Below, piece by piece: positions 3,859-26,384 of a stretch of 34,878 bases of DNA. A program made the translations under genes and the position numbers. Source of the stretch: Syntrophorhabdales bacterium (lineage in GTDB: Bacteria > Desulfobacterota > Syntrophorhabdia > Syntrophorhabdales > WCHB1-27); contig DATKNH010000096.1 of assembly GCA_035541455.1 (NCBI GenBank), positions 1-34,878 on the forward strand, written 5' to 3'. The first letter of the stretch is position 1. Every line of letters starts with the position of its first letter. The notes beneath the pieces are model-generated. The model saw only the letters and a program-made list of their open reading frames with translations. It ran no database searches and was not told where the DNA came from.

Positions 3859-4380
3859 ATGAATATGGGCCAAGCAGAGGGCTCGCGTGAAAACAGGAAA
3901 CATGTCACGATGACCGTTAATGAAAAGAGGGTTGAAGCTGACATCAATCACTACATGACCCTTGCTGAGTTTCTCAGGGAAGAACTCGATCTTACCGGCA
4001 CGAAAGTCGGCTGCAACCGGGGCGAATGCGGAAGCTGCACGGTCATACTTGATGGCGAGGCTGTCTACTCGTGCACAACGCTCGCGGTAGAGGCGGACGG
4101 TAGAGAAGTTCTAACAATAGAGGGAATGCCTGTGAAGGGAAAGCTTCATCCGCTCCAGCAGGCGTTCATCGACCACGACGCGCTTCAGTGCGGGTATTGC
4201 ACGCCCGGCATGATACTCTCTGCCAAGGCCCTGCTGGATAAGAATGCCCATCCCACCGAGCATGATGTGCGTATTGCTATTGACGGAAACCTCTGCCGGT
4301 GCGGTTCTACTCCGAATGTCATCGAAGCCGTTCTGGAGGTTGCCGGAAGGTTGACAGAAAAGAGAGGGGACGGGCAATGA
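3859..4380 (+). CDS. Molybdenum hydroxylase 2Fe-2S subunit (xanthine dehydrogenase family, CoxS-like)
   Basis: A 173-residue protein carrying both 2Fe-2S sites of the family. The plant-ferredoxin-type site has Cys52, Cys57, Cys60 and Cys72 (CNRGECGSC then C); the helical site has Cys111, Cys114, Cys146 and Cys148 (CGYCTPG and CRCG). It moves electrons between the molybdenum centre and the FAD subunit. The first ATG (3859) sits only three bases after GAGGAG, so translation may begin at the second ATG (3865), which has better spacing; this changes only two residues. The stop codon overlaps the start of the large subunit gene (ATGA, 4377-4380), indicating translational coupling. Order small-large-medium is a common arrangement. 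No export signal is seen, so it should be cytoplasmic. Confidence 0.94.
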   Translation: MNMGQAEGSRENRKHVTMTVNEKRVEADINHYMTLAEFLREELDLTGTKVGCNRGECGSCTVILDGEAVYSCTTLAVEADGREVLTIEGMPVKGKLHPLQQAFIDHDALQCGYCTPGMILSAKALLDKNAHPTEHDVRIAIDGNLCRCGSTPNVIEAVLEVAGRLTEKRGDGQ

Positions 4381-6740
4381 GCGAAAGCAAGCTGCTCGTC
4401 AAAGGTACTGTGCCTCCCCCGTTAGACAGAGAATTGACTGTCGTGGGCAAACCGCTCAACCGATATGATGCTCTTGAGAAGGTCACAGGAGAGGCGAAAT
4501 ACGCAGGAGACATCAAACTGCCTGGCATGCTCTATGGAAAAACGCTTCACTGCCCCCATCCGCGCGCGAGGATCCTGAAGATCGATACAAGCAAGGCAGA
4601 GGCTTTACCAGGGGTCATGGCCATCCTGAACAAGGAAAACACGAAGGGTTGGAGGACGTGCTGGTACGAGGTGCCCGAGATCGCCTTTCCCGAAACTATC
4701 ACCCATGAAGGCACTGAAGTAGCGGCAGTGGCGGCGGTCGACGTTGTTACTGCAAGAAAAGCCCTTGAACTGATAGAGGTGGAATACGAGGTACTCACCC
4801 CAATGCCGCCCGCGGAGGAGGCCTTGCAGAAACCGGTTCCTCCGCTCGTTGGGGACGAGGAATATCCTGGAAGGGAGATGTTTGACAGGAAGCCTTTCGT
4901 GATCCAGCGGGGTGATGTCGAGAAAGGCTTTGAGGAAGCCGAGGTAATCGTGGAGGACACCTACACCACGCAGGTTTCCCACCACGGGACAATTCAGACG
5001 CGCGCCTGCGTGGCCAGCTGGGATGGTCATGAACTTACGGTCTGGGATGCCGCACAGGGCGTGTGGAATTCCAAACGGGCACTCGCGAAGTCTCTCGGCC
5101 TCGATCCGGAGAATGTCAGGATAATTGTGCGTTACCTTGGCGGAGGTTTTGGTTCCAAGGCGTGGTCGCACAGGATAGTATATTATGCTGCCAAGCTTTC
5201 CATGGTAACGGGAAGGCCCGTGAGAATGGAACGCACCCGAAACGAAGAATTCGTGAATCATTCACGCAGATACGACACCACAATGTATCTCAAGATGGGA
5301 GCGAAGAAGGACGGCACGCTCACAGCTATTTTTCAAAAGGCCATTGTGGATATAGGAGCGGCGGCGACCGAGGAGAATTATTATTGCAGACAGATCATCT
5401 GGCACACGGCAAATCTTCACGCGTGCCCGAATGTCTACCTGGAGCAGACGGGCGTCAGTACGAACAAGCAAACAACAGGCCCCACCCGCTCTCCCATGAA
5501 CATGCAGGCCATATTCGCTCTGGAATCGCACATGGACCGGATGGCGGTGGAGCTTGGTATCGATCCTTTTGACTTCAGAATGAAGAACTACGCGACCTAT
5601 CAGTCTGTGGGCACGGCAGAGGCTCACATGATTAGTGATGGCACAACCACGTTTGCTGCAAAGATTCCTTACTCGAGCAAGATACTGGACGAATGCATGA
5701 AACTCGCTGTCGACGCGATCGGCTGGGAGAGGAGAAGAGCGCCGGTCAGCGACAACAAGGGCCCACTGAAGCGCGGTATGGGCATGGCCTCCTACCTGGT
5801 GCTCCAGGGCGTCGGTCTTTACCCGTACGTGGCCGAAGCTAAAGTGGTGATCAACCCGGATGGCACCGTCAATCTCTTCGTGGGTGTTGTTGATATAGGG
5901 GGCGGACAAAAGACCATACTGGGGATGATAGCTGCCGAGGAGTTGGGGGTGAGAGCGGGTGACGTGACAGTCTTCATCGGCGACACCAAGGATACCCTCT
6001 ATGCCCCTTCATGTCACGCGTCACGCTGTACGCCTGAGATGGGGCCGGCGGTTCTGCAGGCAGCTGCAGAGGCACGGCAGCGCGTTTTTGAGCACGCAGC
6101 CTTCCTGCTGGATACCGATGCCGGGAGGCTACGATCAAAGGACGGGATGATCTATGTACAATCAGACCCTTCGCGATCGGTTTCATTCAGGAAGGCGTGC
6201 CGGAACATGGCGCCGGACGAAACGATCGTTGGCATAGGCAGCAGGGCACCAAATCCGGCCGAACCCATGATGGCCACATTCGGGGCGCAGACCGTGGAGC
6301 TTGAGGTGGATACCGAGACCGGCCGTGTGAACATCCTGAAATGCGTGGCTGCCCAGGATTTCGGCAAACCGATAAATCCAAAGCTGTGCACATCCCAGGT
6401 ATATGGCGGCATCGAGTTCGGCGTAGGCTTTGCGTTAACAGAGGAAGGCCTCTATGATCCAAGAACAGGAAAGCTCCTGACGGGCAATTTATCCGATTAC
6501 AGGATGCCGACTTCGCTCGATTTCCCGCCTGTCGAGGTATTTCTCCCCGAATGCGAGGATCCTTATTTTGCCTACTCAGCCAAGGGGGCAGGCGAGAATA
6601 CCAATGCCCCCACGCCGGCAGCGATACGTAACGCCCTGTACAACGCCACAGGTATCTGGTTTAACGACCTTCCCATCACGCCTGATAAGATCATCAGGGC
6701 AGCGCGGGCTGCACGCGGTCAGGCGAAAGGAGCGCGTTGA
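4377..6740 (+). CDS. Molybdenum hydroxylase molybdopterin-binding large subunit
   Basis: A 787-residue catalytic subunit of the xanthine dehydrogenase/aldehyde oxidase/hydroxybenzoyl-CoA reductase family. An N-terminal a/b-hammerhead domain (about residues 24-140) precedes the molybdopterin domains, which contain GGGFGSK (255-261) and, near the C-terminus, KGAGENTNAP with Glu740 in the position of the catalytic base. The usual KGxGEPP motif is thus altered after the Glu. The open frame extends upstream to 4299, but the ATG at 4377 overlaps the small-subunit stop and fits the family N-terminus, so I chose it. The enzyme adds a water-derived hydroxyl to, or reductively removes one from, an aldehyde, heteroaromatic or aromatic thioester. 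Substrate is undetermined; the TRAP importer and lyase-family neighbour imply uptake and breakdown of one compound. Confidence 0.92.
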   Translation: MSESKLLVKGTVPPPLDRELTVVGKPLNRYDALEKVTGEAKYAGDIKLPGMLYGKTLHCPHPRARILKIDTSKAEALPGVMAILNKENTKGWRTCWYEVPEIAFPETITHEGTEVAAVAAVDVVTARKALELIEVEYEVLTPMPPAEEALQKPVPPLVGDEEYPGREMFDRKPFVIQRGDVEKGFEEAEVIVEDTYTTQVSHHGTIQTRACVASWDGHELTVWDAAQGVWNSKRALAKSLGLDPENVRIIVRYLGGGFGSKAWSHRIVYYAAKLSMVTGRPVRMERTRNEEFVNHSRRYDTTMYLKMGAKKDGTLTAIFQKAIVDIGAAATEENYYCRQIIWHTANLHACPNVYLEQTGVSTNKQTTGPTRSPMNMQAIFALESHMDRMAVELGIDPFDFRMKNYATYQSVGTAEAHMISDGTTTFAAKIPYSSKILDECMKLAVDAIGWERRRAPVSDNKGPLKRGMGMASYLVLQGVGLYPYVAEAKVVINPDGTVNLFVGVVDIGGGQKTILGMIAAEELGVRAGDVTVFIGDTKDTLYAPSCHASRCTPEMGPAVLQAAAEARQRVFEHAAFLLDTDAGRLRSKDGMIYVQSDPSRSVSFRKACRNMAPDETIVGIGSRAPNPAEPMMATFGAQTVELEVDTETGRVNILKCVAAQDFGKPINPKLCTSQVYGGIEFGVGFALTEEGLYDPRTGKLLTGNLSDYRMPTSLDFPPVEVFLPECEDPYFAYSAKGAGENTNAPTPAAIRNALYNATGIWFNDLPITPDKIIRAARAARGQAKGAR

Positions 6741-9016: not shown

Positions 9017-11746
9017 TTACGCTTTCTCGACGCAGACTGAACAGACTTTCAGCTCCGGAATCTTCGCAACCGGATCGAGTGCATCGTTCGTCAGCCGATT
9101 AATCGGCGCCTCACTGAAGTGAAACGTGGAAAAGACCACACCGGGCGCAACCTTTCCAGGCACCTTTGCGCGTATCTGGATGTTACCGCGGCGGGACGTC
9201 ACCGTAACGAGGTCGCCATCGCGAATTTTCAATTTTGCTGCATCATCCGGATGCATTTCAAGAAGAGCCTCGGGCGCGAGCATGCTCAAGCTGCGGCAGC
9301 GGCGCGTCATGGTCCCTGTATGATAATGGTACTGTATACGCCCGGTTGTGAGCACGAGCGGATAGTTCTCGTCCGCCACCTCCGCCGGCGGCTCATAGTC
9401 TATAGGGGTCAGGAGCCCCTTGCCGCGAGGGAATCTTCCCTGGTGGAGAAAAGGCGTCCCCGGATGATCAACACTCGGGCACGGCCACTGAATACCTCCC
9501 TCACGATCAAGCCGTGAATAGGTGATTCCAGCGTACGAGGGCGTCAGGCGCCGGATCTCCTCGAAGATCTCCTCCGGTGAGGAGAAGCGGGCCTTGATAC
9601 CCATGTTTCTCGTGATCTGCTGGACGATCATCCAGTCAGGGACGCTGTTTCCCACAGGCTGAATGGCAGCCCTCACGCGCTGTACTCGTCGCTCGGTGTT
9701 TGTAAATGTCCCGTCCTTTTCTGCCCACGTGACGCCGGGGAGAACAACGTCGGCGAGTTGCGCCGTCTCCGTCATAAAGATATCCTGGACCACCAGGAAT
9801 TCCAATTTCTGCAACGCTTCCTGGATATGGGCTGAATTGGGGTCTGAAACTACCGGGTTTTCTCCCATCACGTAGAGAGCACGGAGCGTCCCCGCCAGCG
9901 CCGAAGGGATCATTTCCGTAAGTGTTAATCCGGGCTCATCCGGCATGTATGTAGCCCCCCACACACGCGCAACTTGTTTTCTGATATCAGGGTCAGAGAC
10001 AGACTGATAGCCGGTGAAGACATTGGGTAAGGCCCCCATGTCGCATGCGCCCTGCACGTTGTTCTGGCCGCGCAGCGGGTTCACGCCGGTAGAGGGACGG
10101 CCAAGGTTCCCCGTGATCATGGCGAGATTTGCGATGGACTTTACGTTTGCTGTCCCTGTCGTATGCTGCGTGATACCCATCGCATAGAGGAAGGTCGCAT
10201 TGCCTGCCCGGCCGATCAATTCTGCTGCCGCCTTCAGATCGGATGCCGGAATTCCTGTAATCTCTTCCACATGTACAGGCGTATACTTCTCGAGCACAGC
10301 AGCCAGTTCCTCGAAGCCTTCGCAGCGCTCCTCAATAAATTTCTTGTTGTGCAGGTTATTCTTGATGATCCAGTGCATCATGCCGTTGAGCCACGCCACG
10401 TCAGTGCCGGGTCTCGGGCGCAGCCAATAATTCGCCTGGTCCACGAGGTCGATGCGTCTCGGGTCGACCACGATCAGCTTTGCCGCGTTGCGCTCTACCG
10501 CGCGCTTTATTGAGTGGGCGATGATCGCGTGGTTTTCAGTCGTGTTCGTCCCCGTCACCACGATCACGTCAGCTTTTACTATTTCCTCGATCGAATTCGT
10601 CATTGCACCGCTTCCGAATACGGAGGCCAGACCGGCCACGGTGGTGGAGTGTCAGAGCCGCGCGCAGTGGTCCACATTGTTGGTACGGAACGCCTGCCGC
10701 ACCATCCTTTGGAACAGGTAGTTCTCTTCGTTGGTGCATCTGGCACTGGACAGGCCGCCCAGAGCCTGCGGACCGTGTTTATCGCGTATACGGCCGAACT
10801 CGCGGGCCACGCGGGTCAAAGCAGCCGACCACGAGGTTTCTTTGAGCTCTCCCCTCTGGTTGCGGACCAGGGGTTGTGTCAGCCGGTCCGGGCTGTGAAT
10901 AAAGGCGTAGCCGAATCTGCCTTTCACGCAGAGCCTGCCGCGGTTGATGCCAATGTCATCGCGTGTCGTCACCCCCACGACGCGGCCGTTCACCACATTC
11001 AGATCGAGCTGACAGCCGACACCGCAGTACGTGCAGGTCGTCTGCACCTTTGTGGTCTCCCAGGGTTTGCCTTGCTGGTGTACCAGTCGCTCGTCGATTG
11101 CGTTCACCGGACAGACCCGCATGCATTCCCCGCAGGAAATGCAGCGGGACGGAGTACCCGGATCTGACATTACAGGCCGGATTACCGTTTGCGCACCGGC
11201 ACCGCTCAGGGTGATTGCGCCCAGACCGCGTATCTCCGCACAGATCCTGACGCATCTCCCGCACAGGATGCATCTGCGGGGATGGTAGTCCAGAATGGGC
11301 GTCGCGTAAGGCTTCCACGGGAATTCTTCCGTGGCGATGACGTATCGGGCAAAATCGAAGGTGGTGAGATCATACTCGTACGCCATATCCTGGAGGCGGC
11401 ACTGACCATTCTTAGGACACGGTGCGCAATTGAGCGGGTGATGTGCGATGATCATTTTCATGACTTCCCGCCTGAGATGGAATAGCTGCTCCGAGCGGGT
11501 TACCACACGCATGCCTTCGAGAGCCTGCGTGTTGCAGGCCGTAGCGGGCCGGTCAGTTCCCTCGATGGTGACAAGACAGACCCGGCATGAGCCTATGGGT
11601 TGAAGTTCCGGGAGAAAACAAAGCGTCGGAATACGCGCGCCGGCTTTCCGTGCCGCGTCAAGAATCGTTGCGCCTTCAGGCACGCTCACTGCTGTGCCGT
11701 CGATATACAGGGTGATCCGCTTGTTGATTTTCTCTGGGGTCTTCAT
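9017..11746 (-). CDS. fdhA: Formate dehydrogenase catalytic subunit, selenocysteine-containing, NuoG-like N-terminus
   Basis: Reading through one in-frame TGA (10652-10654) gives 909 residues. N-terminal electron-transfer domains come first: a 2Fe-2S site (Cys43, 54, 57, 71), a His/Cys3 4Fe-4S site (His103, Cys107, 110, 116) and two ferredoxin clusters (Cys159/162/165/169 and Cys202/205/208/212). The molybdenum domain opens with its own 4Fe-4S site (Cys238, 241, 245, 273). The TGA is codon 365 in VDHCARL-Sec-HSTTVAGL, the position of active-site Sec in E. coli FdhF, followed by the conserved His. It oxidises formate to CO2 or the reverse, using Mo or W bis-MGD. No Tat signal is present, so it is cytoplasmic. 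The gene lies 10 nt after the flavoprotein gene, forming a two-gene operon. Without recoding it would look like two fragments, which is an annotation hazard. Confidence 0.95.
10620..10654 (-). promoter_or_regulatory. fdhA Sec codon (TGA) and bacterial SECIS hairpin
   Basis: After the TGA (10652-10654, minus strand) the mRNA can form a GGCC/GGCC stem (10634-10637 with 10625-10628) closing the loop GGUCU. The loop G lies 19-20 nt after the UGA, within the range known for SelB-dependent bacterial SECIS elements, and the GGUCU loop matches that of E. coli fdhF as I remember it. Confidence 0.8.
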
Positions 11747-20830: not shown

Positions 20831-21304
20831 TCATCCTGCGTTTGTATCATGCACCCGTAAATCGTCGCGGATGCGGATACAGCCCAACACGCTCTGAGCC
20901 GCGGGGCACCTTGTGAGGTACGCGGAAAAGGCGTCCTGAGCGTCAGCGGCCTTCTCCGGGTCCAGTTTCAGATGATAGGTGACACGTATTTCGGTAATTT
21001 TTGGTATGTCGTTCACCTTTTCGATGTCTCCTTCGACATCCGCGCTATAAAGGTCTTCGGTCGTGTGTATGCCTTTTCCGGCCAGCAACGTGGCCAGTGT
21101 TCCCATCATTCACCCTGCTGTGGCTGCGACCATATGGTCCAGCGTGGCAGGGTATTCTCGTTCAGTCTCAACGTTGTAGAATCGTTTGATACCTCCGTGC
21201 ACGCCATAGTAGATCGGCTCGTCGAATCCCTCGACTATGGCCTTGCGCGTCGGGCCCTTGACCCGTACGATTTTGATGCGCGAAGTATGAAGTATTTCAC
21301 CCAT
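20831..21304 (-). CDS. OsmC-family protein with selenocysteine at the peroxidatic position
   Basis: Two abutting open frames in the same phase, split by a single TGA at 21110-21112, form one 157-residue OsmC-like protein. The TGA is codon 65 in LDHMVAATAG-Sec-MMGTLATLL, exactly where OsmC/Ohr relatives have their reactive Cys at the start of the central helix. The second conserved Cys is kept (Cys133 in YLTRCPAAQS), with another at 142. OsmC proteins reduce organic or lipid hydroperoxides or handle other thiol chemistry in the cytoplasm; Sec would raise reactivity. A SECIS-like hairpin follows the TGA. The start at 21304 has AGGAG upstream. Sec-containing OsmC-like proteins have been reported from selenoproteome surveys, so the class is known but rarely annotated correctly. 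A pseudogene is the alternative, made unlikely by the exact position. Confidence 0.9.
21078..21112 (-). promoter_or_regulatory. osmC Sec codon (TGA) and SECIS-like hairpin
   Basis: Downstream of the TGA (21110-21112) the mRNA can fold CUGGCCA (21091-21097) onto UGGCCGG (21078-21084), seven pairs including one G-U, around the 6-nt loop CGUUGC. The loop G is the second loop base and lies 21 nt after the UGA, as expected for a bacterial SECIS element read by SelB. Confidence 0.72.
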
Positions 21305-21442
21305 GCTGAACTCCTGACCGCTCCGTTACGAAAAGATGGACGGAAGAGGGAAGACCGCTCACTGCGTTCGCTAGCCAGCACTTGAATCCTAAAACCTCTT
21401 CTTCCGTCTTCTATCTTCTATCTCCTTACTTCTATCTTGCTA

Positions 21443-22365: not shown

Positions 22366-23208
22366 CTACAAAAAAATGGTTCCCACATAAACGCTCTGCG
22401 CCAACTCAACGGTGACGCTCTTTGTTTTATGACCATTGTGGACTATACGGAGCGTGTATGTACCGCTGTTTTCTTCGAGGTTGTCAAATTTAAAGTCGCC
22501 GAAGTGATCAGTCGTACACTCGCCTATTTTCTCATTGCCGCTATTCAGGAGCGTTACAGAAGCCCCCTCTGCGCACTCCTCTTTGTCACCGACGCGCAAC
22601 GCCACACTTCCGCCTATGAAGCAGCGCATAAAGCGGTAGAGGTTCTTGTGGAAGGCATGAGGGCTTGTGTTACGCTCAGGCAGATAGGTCTCCAGGTTTT
22701 CTGACTGGATCATCTCATTCACTTCGGTATCGTCTGCGTGACGGAGACTCAATGCTCCCGTGGGGCAGGCCTGTACGCAGCGCGTTTTCTTCCAACCCTC
22801 ATCCAGAAGATGGGCGCAGAGCGTGCATTTCTGCGGTACGTTGAGGACATCGTTCCATTGGATGGCATCGTAAGGGCAGGCTTTCACCACCTGCTTCTGC
22901 CCCTGTGCTTTAGCCGGATCGATGATGACAATGCCGTCTGGTCTCCTTGTGATTGCGTCATCCTTTGCTGCTTTCATACACGGTGCATCCTCACAATGCA
23001 TGCAGGGAACCGGCAGGTAGGCCACGTCGATAAAAGGAAATTCCCCCCGCTCCTTCCGCTCGATGCGTATCCAGCTTGAACCCTGCCCCGGCATGGGTGC
23101 TGCATAGCCGGGCCATTCATTGTCAACGTGCTCGTCTTTGCAGGCGAGAAAGCAGTTGTTACAGTTCTCGCATTTCTCCACGTCAACGACTAGATACCAG
23201 TTCTTCAT
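22366..23208 (-). CDS. Transhydroxylase/resorcinol hydroxylase-type Fe-S small subunit
   Basis: A 280-residue protein close in length and layout to the small subunit of Pelobacter acidigallici pyrogallol-phloroglucinol transhydroxylase (about 274). It has exactly twelve ferredoxin-type cysteines for three 4Fe-4S clusters: 13, 16, 19, 23; 69, 72, 77; 111; and 128, 131, 144, 148. Related DmsB/NrfC subunits have sixteen; here Ala replaces a cysteine after 77 and the fourth cluster is lost. After residue 198 comes an all-beta domain (SVALRVGDKEECAEGASVTL, then FGDFKFDNLEENSGTYTLRI) like the transthyretin-like third domain of that enzyme. It partners the large subunit encoded upstream, 188 bp away. 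No signal peptide, so cytoplasmic. Resorcinol hydroxylase RhS is the nearest alternative. Confidence 0.88.
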   Translation of the reverse strand: MKNWYLVVDVEKCENCNNCFLACKDEHVDNEWPGYAAPMPGQGSSWIRIERKERGEFPFIDVAYLPVPCMHCEDAPCMKAAKDDAITRRPDGIVIIDPAKAQGQKQVVKACPYDAIQWNDVLNVPQKCTLCAHLLDEGWKKTRCVQACPTGALSLRHADDTEVNEMIQSENLETYLPERNTSPHAFHKNLYRFMRCFIGGSVALRVGDKEECAEGASVTLLNSGNEKIGECTTDHFGDFKFDNLEENSGTYTLRIVHNGHKTKSVTVELAQSVYVGTIFL

Positions 23209-23396: not shown

Positions 23397-26384
23397 CTAT
23401 TTCATCCATCGCTCGATCTCCACGAGGCATGAGTTTGCCGCTATGCTGTGCGATTTTTCGATGATTGATCGGCTAGGCGTCAAGATGTTCATGCAGCCCC
23501 CGCGGTCTGGAGACGATCCGGGTTCTCCGATCGGGTCGTAATTTGACGAGCCCTCGTACGAGTGAACCGTGCCCGGACCTACCCGCTCTGTGATCTCTGC
23601 TGCGCAGATGACCGAGCCCCGATCGTTGAATACTCTCACCAGGTTGTTCTCTTTGATGCCACGTGCTTCGGCATCCTGAGAGTTGATACGCACGATCCAG
23701 TAATAATAGCCGTCAATCAACACACGATGATCTTTTATGTCATTGATCCAGCTATGTTTCCCGTCTCCCATGGTGTGAAAGCTGTACCTGGGGTGAGGAG
23801 TAATCATCTGCAAGGGGTATTTCTTGTAAAGCTCGGCGGTATGATGACCTTCCCAGGCAGGGATGTATTTGGTCATCACCGGTCTCTCCGGGTCATTCGG
23901 GTCGAAGCGCTGCAGACTCGAACAGACGAACTCTATTTTCCCCGTTTGGGTCTGAAGGCCCCTGAAGACCTGTTCGGAGTAATCTGCCGGCAATGGGGCA
24001 ATCTCGGGCGTATCCTTCAGCCGGTCTTCAGCAAAAGCCCTGAAAGAAACTGGTGCGCGCAACTCCTCCTTGGGCGCGGGAATCACGTAATAGCCTTTCT
24101 CGAGAAAGGTTTTCCACGAGATCGCTTTAGGCAGGTCAGTTGCTTCGAAGAGGCGCTTGCACCAGTCGAACTCAGTAACTCCTTCCGAGAAGAGCGCTGC
24201 AAACCCCAGCCGTTTCGCTATCTCGAGGAATATCTGGAAATCTGATTTGGACTCGCCGAGGGGCTCGATACACTTATGTTGCAGAATTGCCACCCGGTGG
24301 TTGCACTGGTTGAAGCTGTGCTGAATGTAGCCTCCGCAGTTGGCGAACTCACTGATGTCCCACCGCTCAAAGTTTGTGCAGGCAGGCAGTATGACGTCTG
24401 CAAACTTTGCTTCTCCTTCGAACCATATTGACTGGTTGACCACAAATTCGAGTTTGTCGGACCGGTACATTTTTGCGTAGCGGTTTGTTTCGCACATGGT
24501 GCCCAAGTGAGAGCCGCCGTACTTGTAGTACATCTTTACCGGTGAATGACCCGGCGCGGGATAGTCGTACCGGAGAAACTGGCCGTGAATGGTCATGGAG
24601 TCGGTCGGATAGCCGTACGTATGGCCGTCGAGGATTGCCTCTGGAATGCGTAACCGGGGCACCCGCTGGTAAACTGTGTTTACGGTCGGCAGCTGCGGAA
24701 AGCGTGAGTAAAGCGCCACGGCGAGAGCCGTGCCGCCGAGATCACCTGAGAGGCCTCCCTCAGCATAGCCAGGGAAATAGAAGCTCGTGTCTATGGGTGT
24801 GCCCTGCTGCATGCCGCCCATATTGATGCCTGGCTTGCCGAGACCCTGCATGGCCATGAGACAGACCATGGAGCGGGCCCATTCATTTCCTGTAGCGTCG
24901 CGGCAGGCGCTGCCAAAACCCGAGAGCCCGCCTGCTGCAAGATACGTCTTTCTCGTACCCCATAACCTGGCCAGCGCCCTTACTTCTCTCGCGGGTATTC
25001 CTGCCTCTCCCTCTTGCCATTCGGGAGTTTTCGGGATACCGTCTTCTTTGCCCAGCACATACTCCTTCCACTGATCGAACCCGTGGGTGCGCGAGGCCAC
25101 GTATGCCTTATCGTAAAGACCTTCTGTTATCCACACGTACGCGACGGCCAGTGCAAGGGAGTTACCTGTTGCGGGTCGAGGCGCGAGCCACTTGCCGCCG
25201 AGAAGAGCTGCCGTGTGGTTGTAAAACGGATCAATATGCACCATCTTGATACCCAGCTCTTTCAGCCACTGGCGGCGGACAGTGCCCTCGAATGCACCGT
25301 ACACCCCACTTGTCGCTTCCGGGTCGCTCGACCAGAAGACGACCATTTCACATTCCTTGAGGCAATCTTCTACTGTGCCGTAGCTTTCGGGCGCACCAAG
25401 GTGCATGCTCTGTCCCCAGTGGTGCGTTGCGCCCCAGTACCAGCCTTCCCAGCTGTCTGGATTATGCGCCACCGGTGTCCATCCAATGTTGTTGAAGAAT
25501 CTGAGTCGCGCGCTCAACCAATAGCCGAGGATTCCCCACAGATGATGCGAGCCGCTCCCGTTCAGGATGGCTCCCGGACCATGCGTCTTCTTCACGCGCT
25601 TTATTTCATTTGCAACAATATCGAGCGCTTCATCCCAGCTGATGCGGACGTATTCCGACGTGCCCCGGTTCTGGCAGTTGCGATTACCATTGGGATCGAA
25701 ATCAACCCGCTTCATCGGGTAGAGAATCCTTTCAGGCGAGTAGATCATTGATTTGAAGACGAGTGTGTGGGGAGAAATGGTTGTCCGGCGAGGAGGAGTG
25801 AATGTCTTTCCTCTCGCTCTGATTGTCCATGGCTGTGCATCCTTGTCGTCAAAATCGATGGGCGTGATCCTCAGGATCTTCCCGTCCTTCACGTAGACGA
25901 ACACAGGACCGCCGTTGCTGTTACTTGTGTATCTCGTGACGCCTTTGCCCATGTCGGTGCCGTATTTCGTTCCCGCATTGAGCATCAGGCTCAGCGTTTC
26001 CATCCACCAGCTGCTCATCTCATCCGGGCCTTCGAGCCCCAGGCGGAAACTCTTCATGGCGTTGATCGTGGCCAGCTGATCGCGGGGGGGGACGAGCATA
26101 TCGAGCGCCACGCGTGCGTCGCCGAAGGTCACGGTGACGTCAGGGGAGGCATGAATACCGCTTCCCGATATAACCTCGCCGTTCCTGATGGTGAAGTATC
26201 TGCCACGAGAATTGTCCTTCAGTTTCAATTGGGCTGTGAGCGTCCTCTCGCCAAGGCGCTTCTTGAAAAACGGGAATTTTCTTGCCGTGGAGTCGAGACG
26301 CATTTTCATGGCAAGGAGAACGAGTGAAAAAATAAAATTCGCAAGCGCGTCAGATTTAGCCAGTAATTTGACTATCGATTTCAC
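23397..26384 (-). CDS. Pyrogallol-phloroglucinol transhydroxylase/resorcinol hydroxylase-type Mo subunit with SCP2-like N-terminal domain
   Basis: A 995-residue DMSO reductase-family molybdoenzyme. The Mo-bisMGD part starts near residue 150 and, like the transhydroxylase large subunit (about 875 residues), lacks the usual N-terminal 4Fe-4S cysteine motif. Expected active-site segments are GATHHWG (His321/His322) and VVFWSSDPE (350s), whose Ser is the likely Mo ligand. The first 130 residues are extra: [38 protein letters not shown] and a Trp-rich helix resemble an SCP2 sterol-carrier domain. No Tat motif, so cytoplasmic. With the small subunit it should move or add a hydroxyl on a phenol ring without O2. 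The start is GTG at 26382-26384 with AGGGG upstream. Family identification is strong; pyrogallol versus resorcinol as substrate is open. Confidence 0.87.

Follow-up and report, generated by a model that had tools for sequence, protein, structure and literature searches.

Proteins of the Ohr/OsmC family are known as two-cysteine thiol peroxidases with lipoyl systems as reductant, and their YhfA-type relatives, which are without the Arg and Glu, have no established role (PMC8945050). OsmC-like selenoproteins carrying the motif UxxT were described from marine metagenomes in 2005 and 2008 (PMC1088965, PMC2398784), and a single OsmC-like selenoprotein family, with UxxT, is listed in a 2026 review (PMC13188914). 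The model that NCBI provides for OsmC-related (seleno)proteins is NCBIfam NF041052. Here we describe an OsmC-family gene with an in-frame TGA found in a window of 34,878 nucleotides (the whole stretch of DNA that was analysed, from contig DATKNH010000096.1 of a Syntrophorhabdales bacterium). Multiple features of this gene and its relatives indicate, with a probability that we put at about 0.95, that selenocysteine (Sec) is inserted at its codon 65.

The interrupted gene, its relatives and the decoding machinery

The gene occupies 20831..21304 of the minus strand, with its ATG at 21304-21302, its terminal TGA at 20833-20831 and, as judged by sequence, an RBS-like AGGAG at 21311..21315 (minus strand), 6 nt upstream of the ATG. 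Read through the internal TGA at 21110..21112 (minus strand), it encodes a product of 157 aa with Sec65 (MGEILHTSR...DHMVAATAGU(65)MMGTLATLLAGKG...TRCPAAQSVLGCIRIRDDLRVHDTNAG, followed by the TGA stop), and this read-through protein matches the Pfam OsmC domain (PF02566) with an E-value of 2.5e-10 and 41.1 bits, against a gathering cut-off of 27.5.

The TGA is a stable property of the gene. A scan of contigs retrieved four relatives of 68–84% identity, all four with TGA at the same codon, and when 395 genomes of the phylum were searched with a profile, they yielded 34 full-length copies, that of the window included, together with one copy split over contig ends (G047), so that carriers account for about 9% of the sampled genomes (35/395). 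Every copy from the profile search contains exactly one internal stop, and it is a TGA. These copies and those from the other scans were combined into an alignment of 37 distinct full-length sequences, window included, with 54–83% identity to the window's protein. In this set 18 families of the phylum are represented, and two additional genomes contributed as well, including a Candidatus Abyssobacteria MAG. The window shares its genus with the MAG Syntrophobacterales bacterium Chersky.21_67 (G422), which corresponds to L001 in both contig and sequence. Codon 65 is TGA in all 37, none of which has a second internal TGA, the protein is conserved on both sides of it, and Cys occupies the Sec65 site in none of these relatives. 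Searches of plasmid and viral collections returned no relatives.

That the TGA is a pseudogene lesion or a sequencing error in a Cys codon would demand a difference of only one base, and the assembly, at 173 contigs, is of draft quality; we nevertheless rejected this explanation, whose probability is negligible, on the grounds that independently assembled genomes share the TGA across 37 distinct genes, in which the frame is open and conserved both before and after it. With the TGA kept in all full-length relatives, standard gene-finders can be expected to split the gene wherever it occurs.

Fragments of the gene in three genomes (G057, G386 and G192) look like decayed copies. In G192 there are three N-terminal fragments (L064, about 3960-4100 and 5080-5210; L063) and no full copy, and two of the three sit within nearly identical repeats separated by about 1.1 kb; gene decay, perhaps tied to a duplication, may account for this arrangement.

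With respect to the decoding machinery, selA (579 bits), selB, selD and tRNA-Sec were all found in the window's genome, the tRNA being called by both Rfam and ARAGORN with the anticodon UCA. The selD gene (L022:1501-2415, minus strand) has an in-frame TGA of its own (...KAAGUAAK...), and its U falls at what we take to be the usual Sec/Cys site of SelD; the in-frame TGA suggests that SelD itself is probably a selenoprotein. Two full-length selB genes are present (L005, G000:C116; L006, G000:C102), one of them on a 5.2-kb contig, and they could be either paralogues or the product of a binned second strain. Across the carriers, selB was detected in 36 of the 38 genomes tested, the two without it (G093 and G344) being fragmented MAGs. 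Since selB is also common among non-carrier genomes of the phylum, this co-occurrence is weak evidence and serves as a consistency check rather than as proof.

The same machinery bears on a genome-wide code change in which TGA would be read as some other amino acid. Such a change would open the frame equally well, but it is hard to reconcile with the presence of tRNA-Sec(UCA), SelA, SelB and SelD, with the Sec-type TGA codons also seen in SelD and in the formate dehydrogenase alpha subunit (FdhA) of the window, with the use of TGA as the terminator of the gene itself, and with the Cys that other OsmC proteins have in this column; we regard it as extremely improbable.

Thus far, the preliminary description of this locus is borne out. 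It had placed a TGA at 21110-21112 between two in-phase halves of one OsmC protein, at the position of the reactive cysteine, and both the read-through translation and the alignment to Ohr/OsmC proteins agree; its coordinates are correct, and the strand, which it left unstated, is the minus strand. It had observed that standard gene calling yields two ORFs, and the gene is indeed cut in two by such callers. The sequencing error that it named as a possible source of the TGA is ruled out by the conservation in 37 of 37 sequences, and the selA, selB, selC and selD genes that it proposed to look for have their counterparts here in selA, selB, selD and tRNA-Sec(UCA).

The hairpin downstream of the TGA

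A stem-loop that we identify as the predicted SECIS element lies at 21078..21097 on the minus strand, with its 5' arm at 21097-21091, its loop at 21090-21085 and its 3' arm at 21084-21078. It has seven pairs, begins 13 nt after the TGA and closes on a 6-nt loop, CGUUGC, with G as its second base and a spacing of 19 nt from the UGA; the 48-nt stretch counted from the UGA has an MFE of -12.7 kcal/mol. The bSECIS model specifies an upper stem of 4-16 bp, a loop of 3-9 nt with a G among its first two bases, a distance of 16-37 nt between loop and UGA, and an MFE of at most -7.5 kcal/mol (PMC13188914), and the hairpin falls within every one of these limits. The seven-pair hairpin of the preliminary description, with its G in the second loop position and its start 13 nt past the TGA, was exact. 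Rfam returned no matches on the window, a result that counts little against a bacterial SECIS, because these elements have little sequence in common (PMC13188914).

If the hairpin is a SECIS, its codons should withstand synonymous change. Across the 37 genes, the third positions of the four conserved codons of the stem, Leu70, Ala71, Leu74 and Ala75, have entropies of 0.00, 0.36, 0.00 and 0.48 bits, respectively, compared with about 1.3-1.9 bits at four-fold sites elsewhere. When codons were resampled with the amino acids held fixed (2000 trials, 37 genes), the mean number of stem pairs was 5.47±0.13 out of 7, compared with the observed 6.81, and at least six of the seven pairs formed in 19.3±2.7 genes, with a maximum of 28, compared with all 37 in the actual sequences. 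Hence the pairing is conserved beyond the constraint imposed by the protein, more than chance would produce. In five of the 37 genes the outer pair has become T-A instead of C-G, and 31 of them have G as the second base of the loop.

These observations also weigh on the proposal that the TGA is a true stop, after which translation restarts to produce a split OsmC of two chains. In the window's gene an ATG ATG directly abuts the TGA on its 3' side, Met66 is invariant in the 37 sequences, and an ORF finder calls a C-terminal ORF of 92 residues, all of which would suit reinitiation. Yet reinitiation has no need of a SECIS-like stem, whereas the stem codons are frozen and their pairing exceeds the protein constraint; moreover, neither TAA nor TAG takes the place of the TGA in any of the relatives, the residue after the TGA is Leu rather than Met in the distant relative L061, and the break between the chains would land exactly on the reactive residue. 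We therefore consider two separate polypeptides highly unlikely, and favor decoding of the UGA as Sec.

Active site, genomic setting and predicted chemistry

Sec65 aligns with the first and Cys133 with the second redox Cys of Ohr (with a weak E-value, though with matching motifs), and the same two residues align with the two redox Cys of other OsmC proteins; the comparison with Cys homologues that had been suggested for this gene thus places Sec65 on the reactive Cys of Ohr/OsmC. Both residues are invariant in the alignment of 37, Cys133 (codon at 20906..20908, minus strand; motif CPAAQS) as part of an invariant Cys133-Pro134 pair. The column ten residues upstream of the reactive residue, presumably that of the catalytic Glu in canonical Ohr/OsmC, is an invariant Leu55 in the subfamily, with an invariant Asp one residue later. 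Given this Leu, plain reduction of organic hydroperoxides is uncertain and the classical mechanism may not apply. OsmC/Ohr peroxidases also have a catalytic Arg in the N-terminal region, where R14 and R20 of the subfamily are invariant, but this part can be aligned to canonical OsmC only unreliably.

That the two redox sites are equivalent is read from sequence, as are the conserved Sec codon, the constraint on the hairpin and the decoding machinery. On this reading the gene is intact: UGA codon 65 is most probably decoded as Sec by SelB and tRNA-Sec(UCA) under the direction of the downstream hairpin, and Sec65 stands in for the reactive Cys, with Cys133 as the presumed resolving residue. The chemistry, substrate and reductant that we infer would take the following form. 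The Sec65 selenolate would reduce a peroxide-like or other electrophilic substrate, a Se-S bond would then form between Sec65 and Cys133, and this bond would be re-reduced by a dithiol donor, the role that lipoyl proteins have in known Ohr/OsmC. We favor Se-S redox chemistry on the OsmC fold, with peroxide only a likely substrate; peroxidase-type chemistry as such appears more probable than not.

The gene's surroundings are of little help in this respect. In the window it is located between a gene for an FmdE-domain protein and one for an NMT1-like binding protein. The preliminary description took the setting between molybdoenzymes and transporters to suggest a specific redox duty rather than general peroxide defense. 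This argument does not hold: comparison of the ORFs at 34 loci, up to a distance of about 8 kb on either side, detected no conserved neighbors, and any family that recurs close by does so in a few genomes at most. Nothing on function can therefore be drawn from the molybdoenzymes and transporters in the vicinity.

Two other loci of the window deserve mention in their own right. The FdhA gene is a second selenoprotein gene of the window, at 9017-11746 (minus strand) with its TGA at 10654-10652; its product has Sec365 (ARLUHSTTVAGL) and scores 865 bits against TIGR01591, and ORF calling splits it into 364 and 540 aa. A large molybdopterin enzyme whose first domain resembles that of pyrogallol hydroxytransferase is encoded at 23397-26384 (minus strand), with a 4Fe-4S partner at 22366-23208; a long in-frame extension upstream of the former leaves its start position unclear.

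An alternative that concerns the chemistry only, and leaves Sec insertion untouched, is that the selenoprotein is no peroxidase and carries out, for example, selenenyl or persulfide transfer or the detoxification of another electrophile. It would fit the Leu in the catalytic-Glu column, the lack of Arg and Glu in YhfA-type relatives that have no established role (PMC8945050), and the separate Cys-containing OsmC-family proteins of several carriers (e.g., G363, G271, G326, G226 and G299), which suggest a separate duty and imply that the Sec protein is not simply the sole OsmC of these organisms. Against it, the 34 loci offer no conserved gene neighbors that would hint at another substrate. We regard this alternative as a real, if lesser, possibility. 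For the window's own genome, a PF02566 search gave no matches and missed even the Sec-OsmC gene, so that it is no proof that other OsmC proteins are lacking there.

For a selenoprotein, it is unusual that not one of the 37 sequences is a Cys version. Tentatively, the subfamily might be Sec-exclusive, with selenium obligatory and the gene lost sooner than switched to Cys, an idea that is suggestive only, as the sequences that reveal no Cys form are mainly those of a single phylum and other genomes were covered by a pattern-limited scan. If true, it would imply chemistry beyond the reach of Cys, possibly other than peroxide reduction. Why selenium is retained is a directly testable question that can be put to the Sec and Cys forms of one protein.

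Comparison with described OsmC proteins

The present group is a separate Sec-bearing OsmC subfamily, distinct by profile score only, as the tree is poorly resolved, with weak inner branches for the most part and very long branches to the outgroup. It falls below the cut-off of every NCBIfam model and is halved by standard gene calling, and its recognition adds a distinct subfamily of selenoproteins. What stands of the initial proposal is the Sec at the reactive-Cys site of an OsmC protein; the argument from molybdoenzymes and transporters does not, and Sec in OsmC-like proteins has been known since 2005 (PMC1088965).

With the marine OsmC-like selenoproteins and NF041052 the subfamily shares Sec at the reactive-Cys position and a downstream SECIS. 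Against the NF041052 cut-off of 95, however, the window's protein scores 14.1 bits and L060 15.1, and L037 is absent from the matches listed. The known motif is UxxT, whereas that of the present subfamily is UxxG (UMMG), accompanied by CPxxQS around the second Cys; the two Sec-bearing NF041052 members in this phylum have ULLT (L072) and UMFS (L073). Furthermore, an EPxYYGVHGGI (GVHG) segment is extra relative to the NF041052 members compared, and, unlike in those groups, no Cys form was seen among the 37 sequences.

The OsmC/Ohr thiol peroxidases (TIGR03562, PF02566) have the OsmC domain and the two aligned redox positions in common with the subfamily, which differs in Sec for the first Cys and Leu in the catalytic-Glu column; its score against TIGR03562 is 19 bits, with a cut-off of 85.8. 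The YhfA-type OsmC proteins (COG1765), likened here by description, also combine two redox positions with the lack of the canonical catalytic Glu, and have Cys where the present subfamily has Sec. Another relative is the L061 protein (G025, L061:6044-6499), a Sec-containing OsmC that has a single in-frame TGA and shares the GVHG segment; it scores 106 bits against the profile of the 37-sequence alignment. It is far diverged, with Leu after Sec (ULTG, CPVYRS), and probably represents a sister lineage, which may amount to a second sister subfamily not covered by NF041052.
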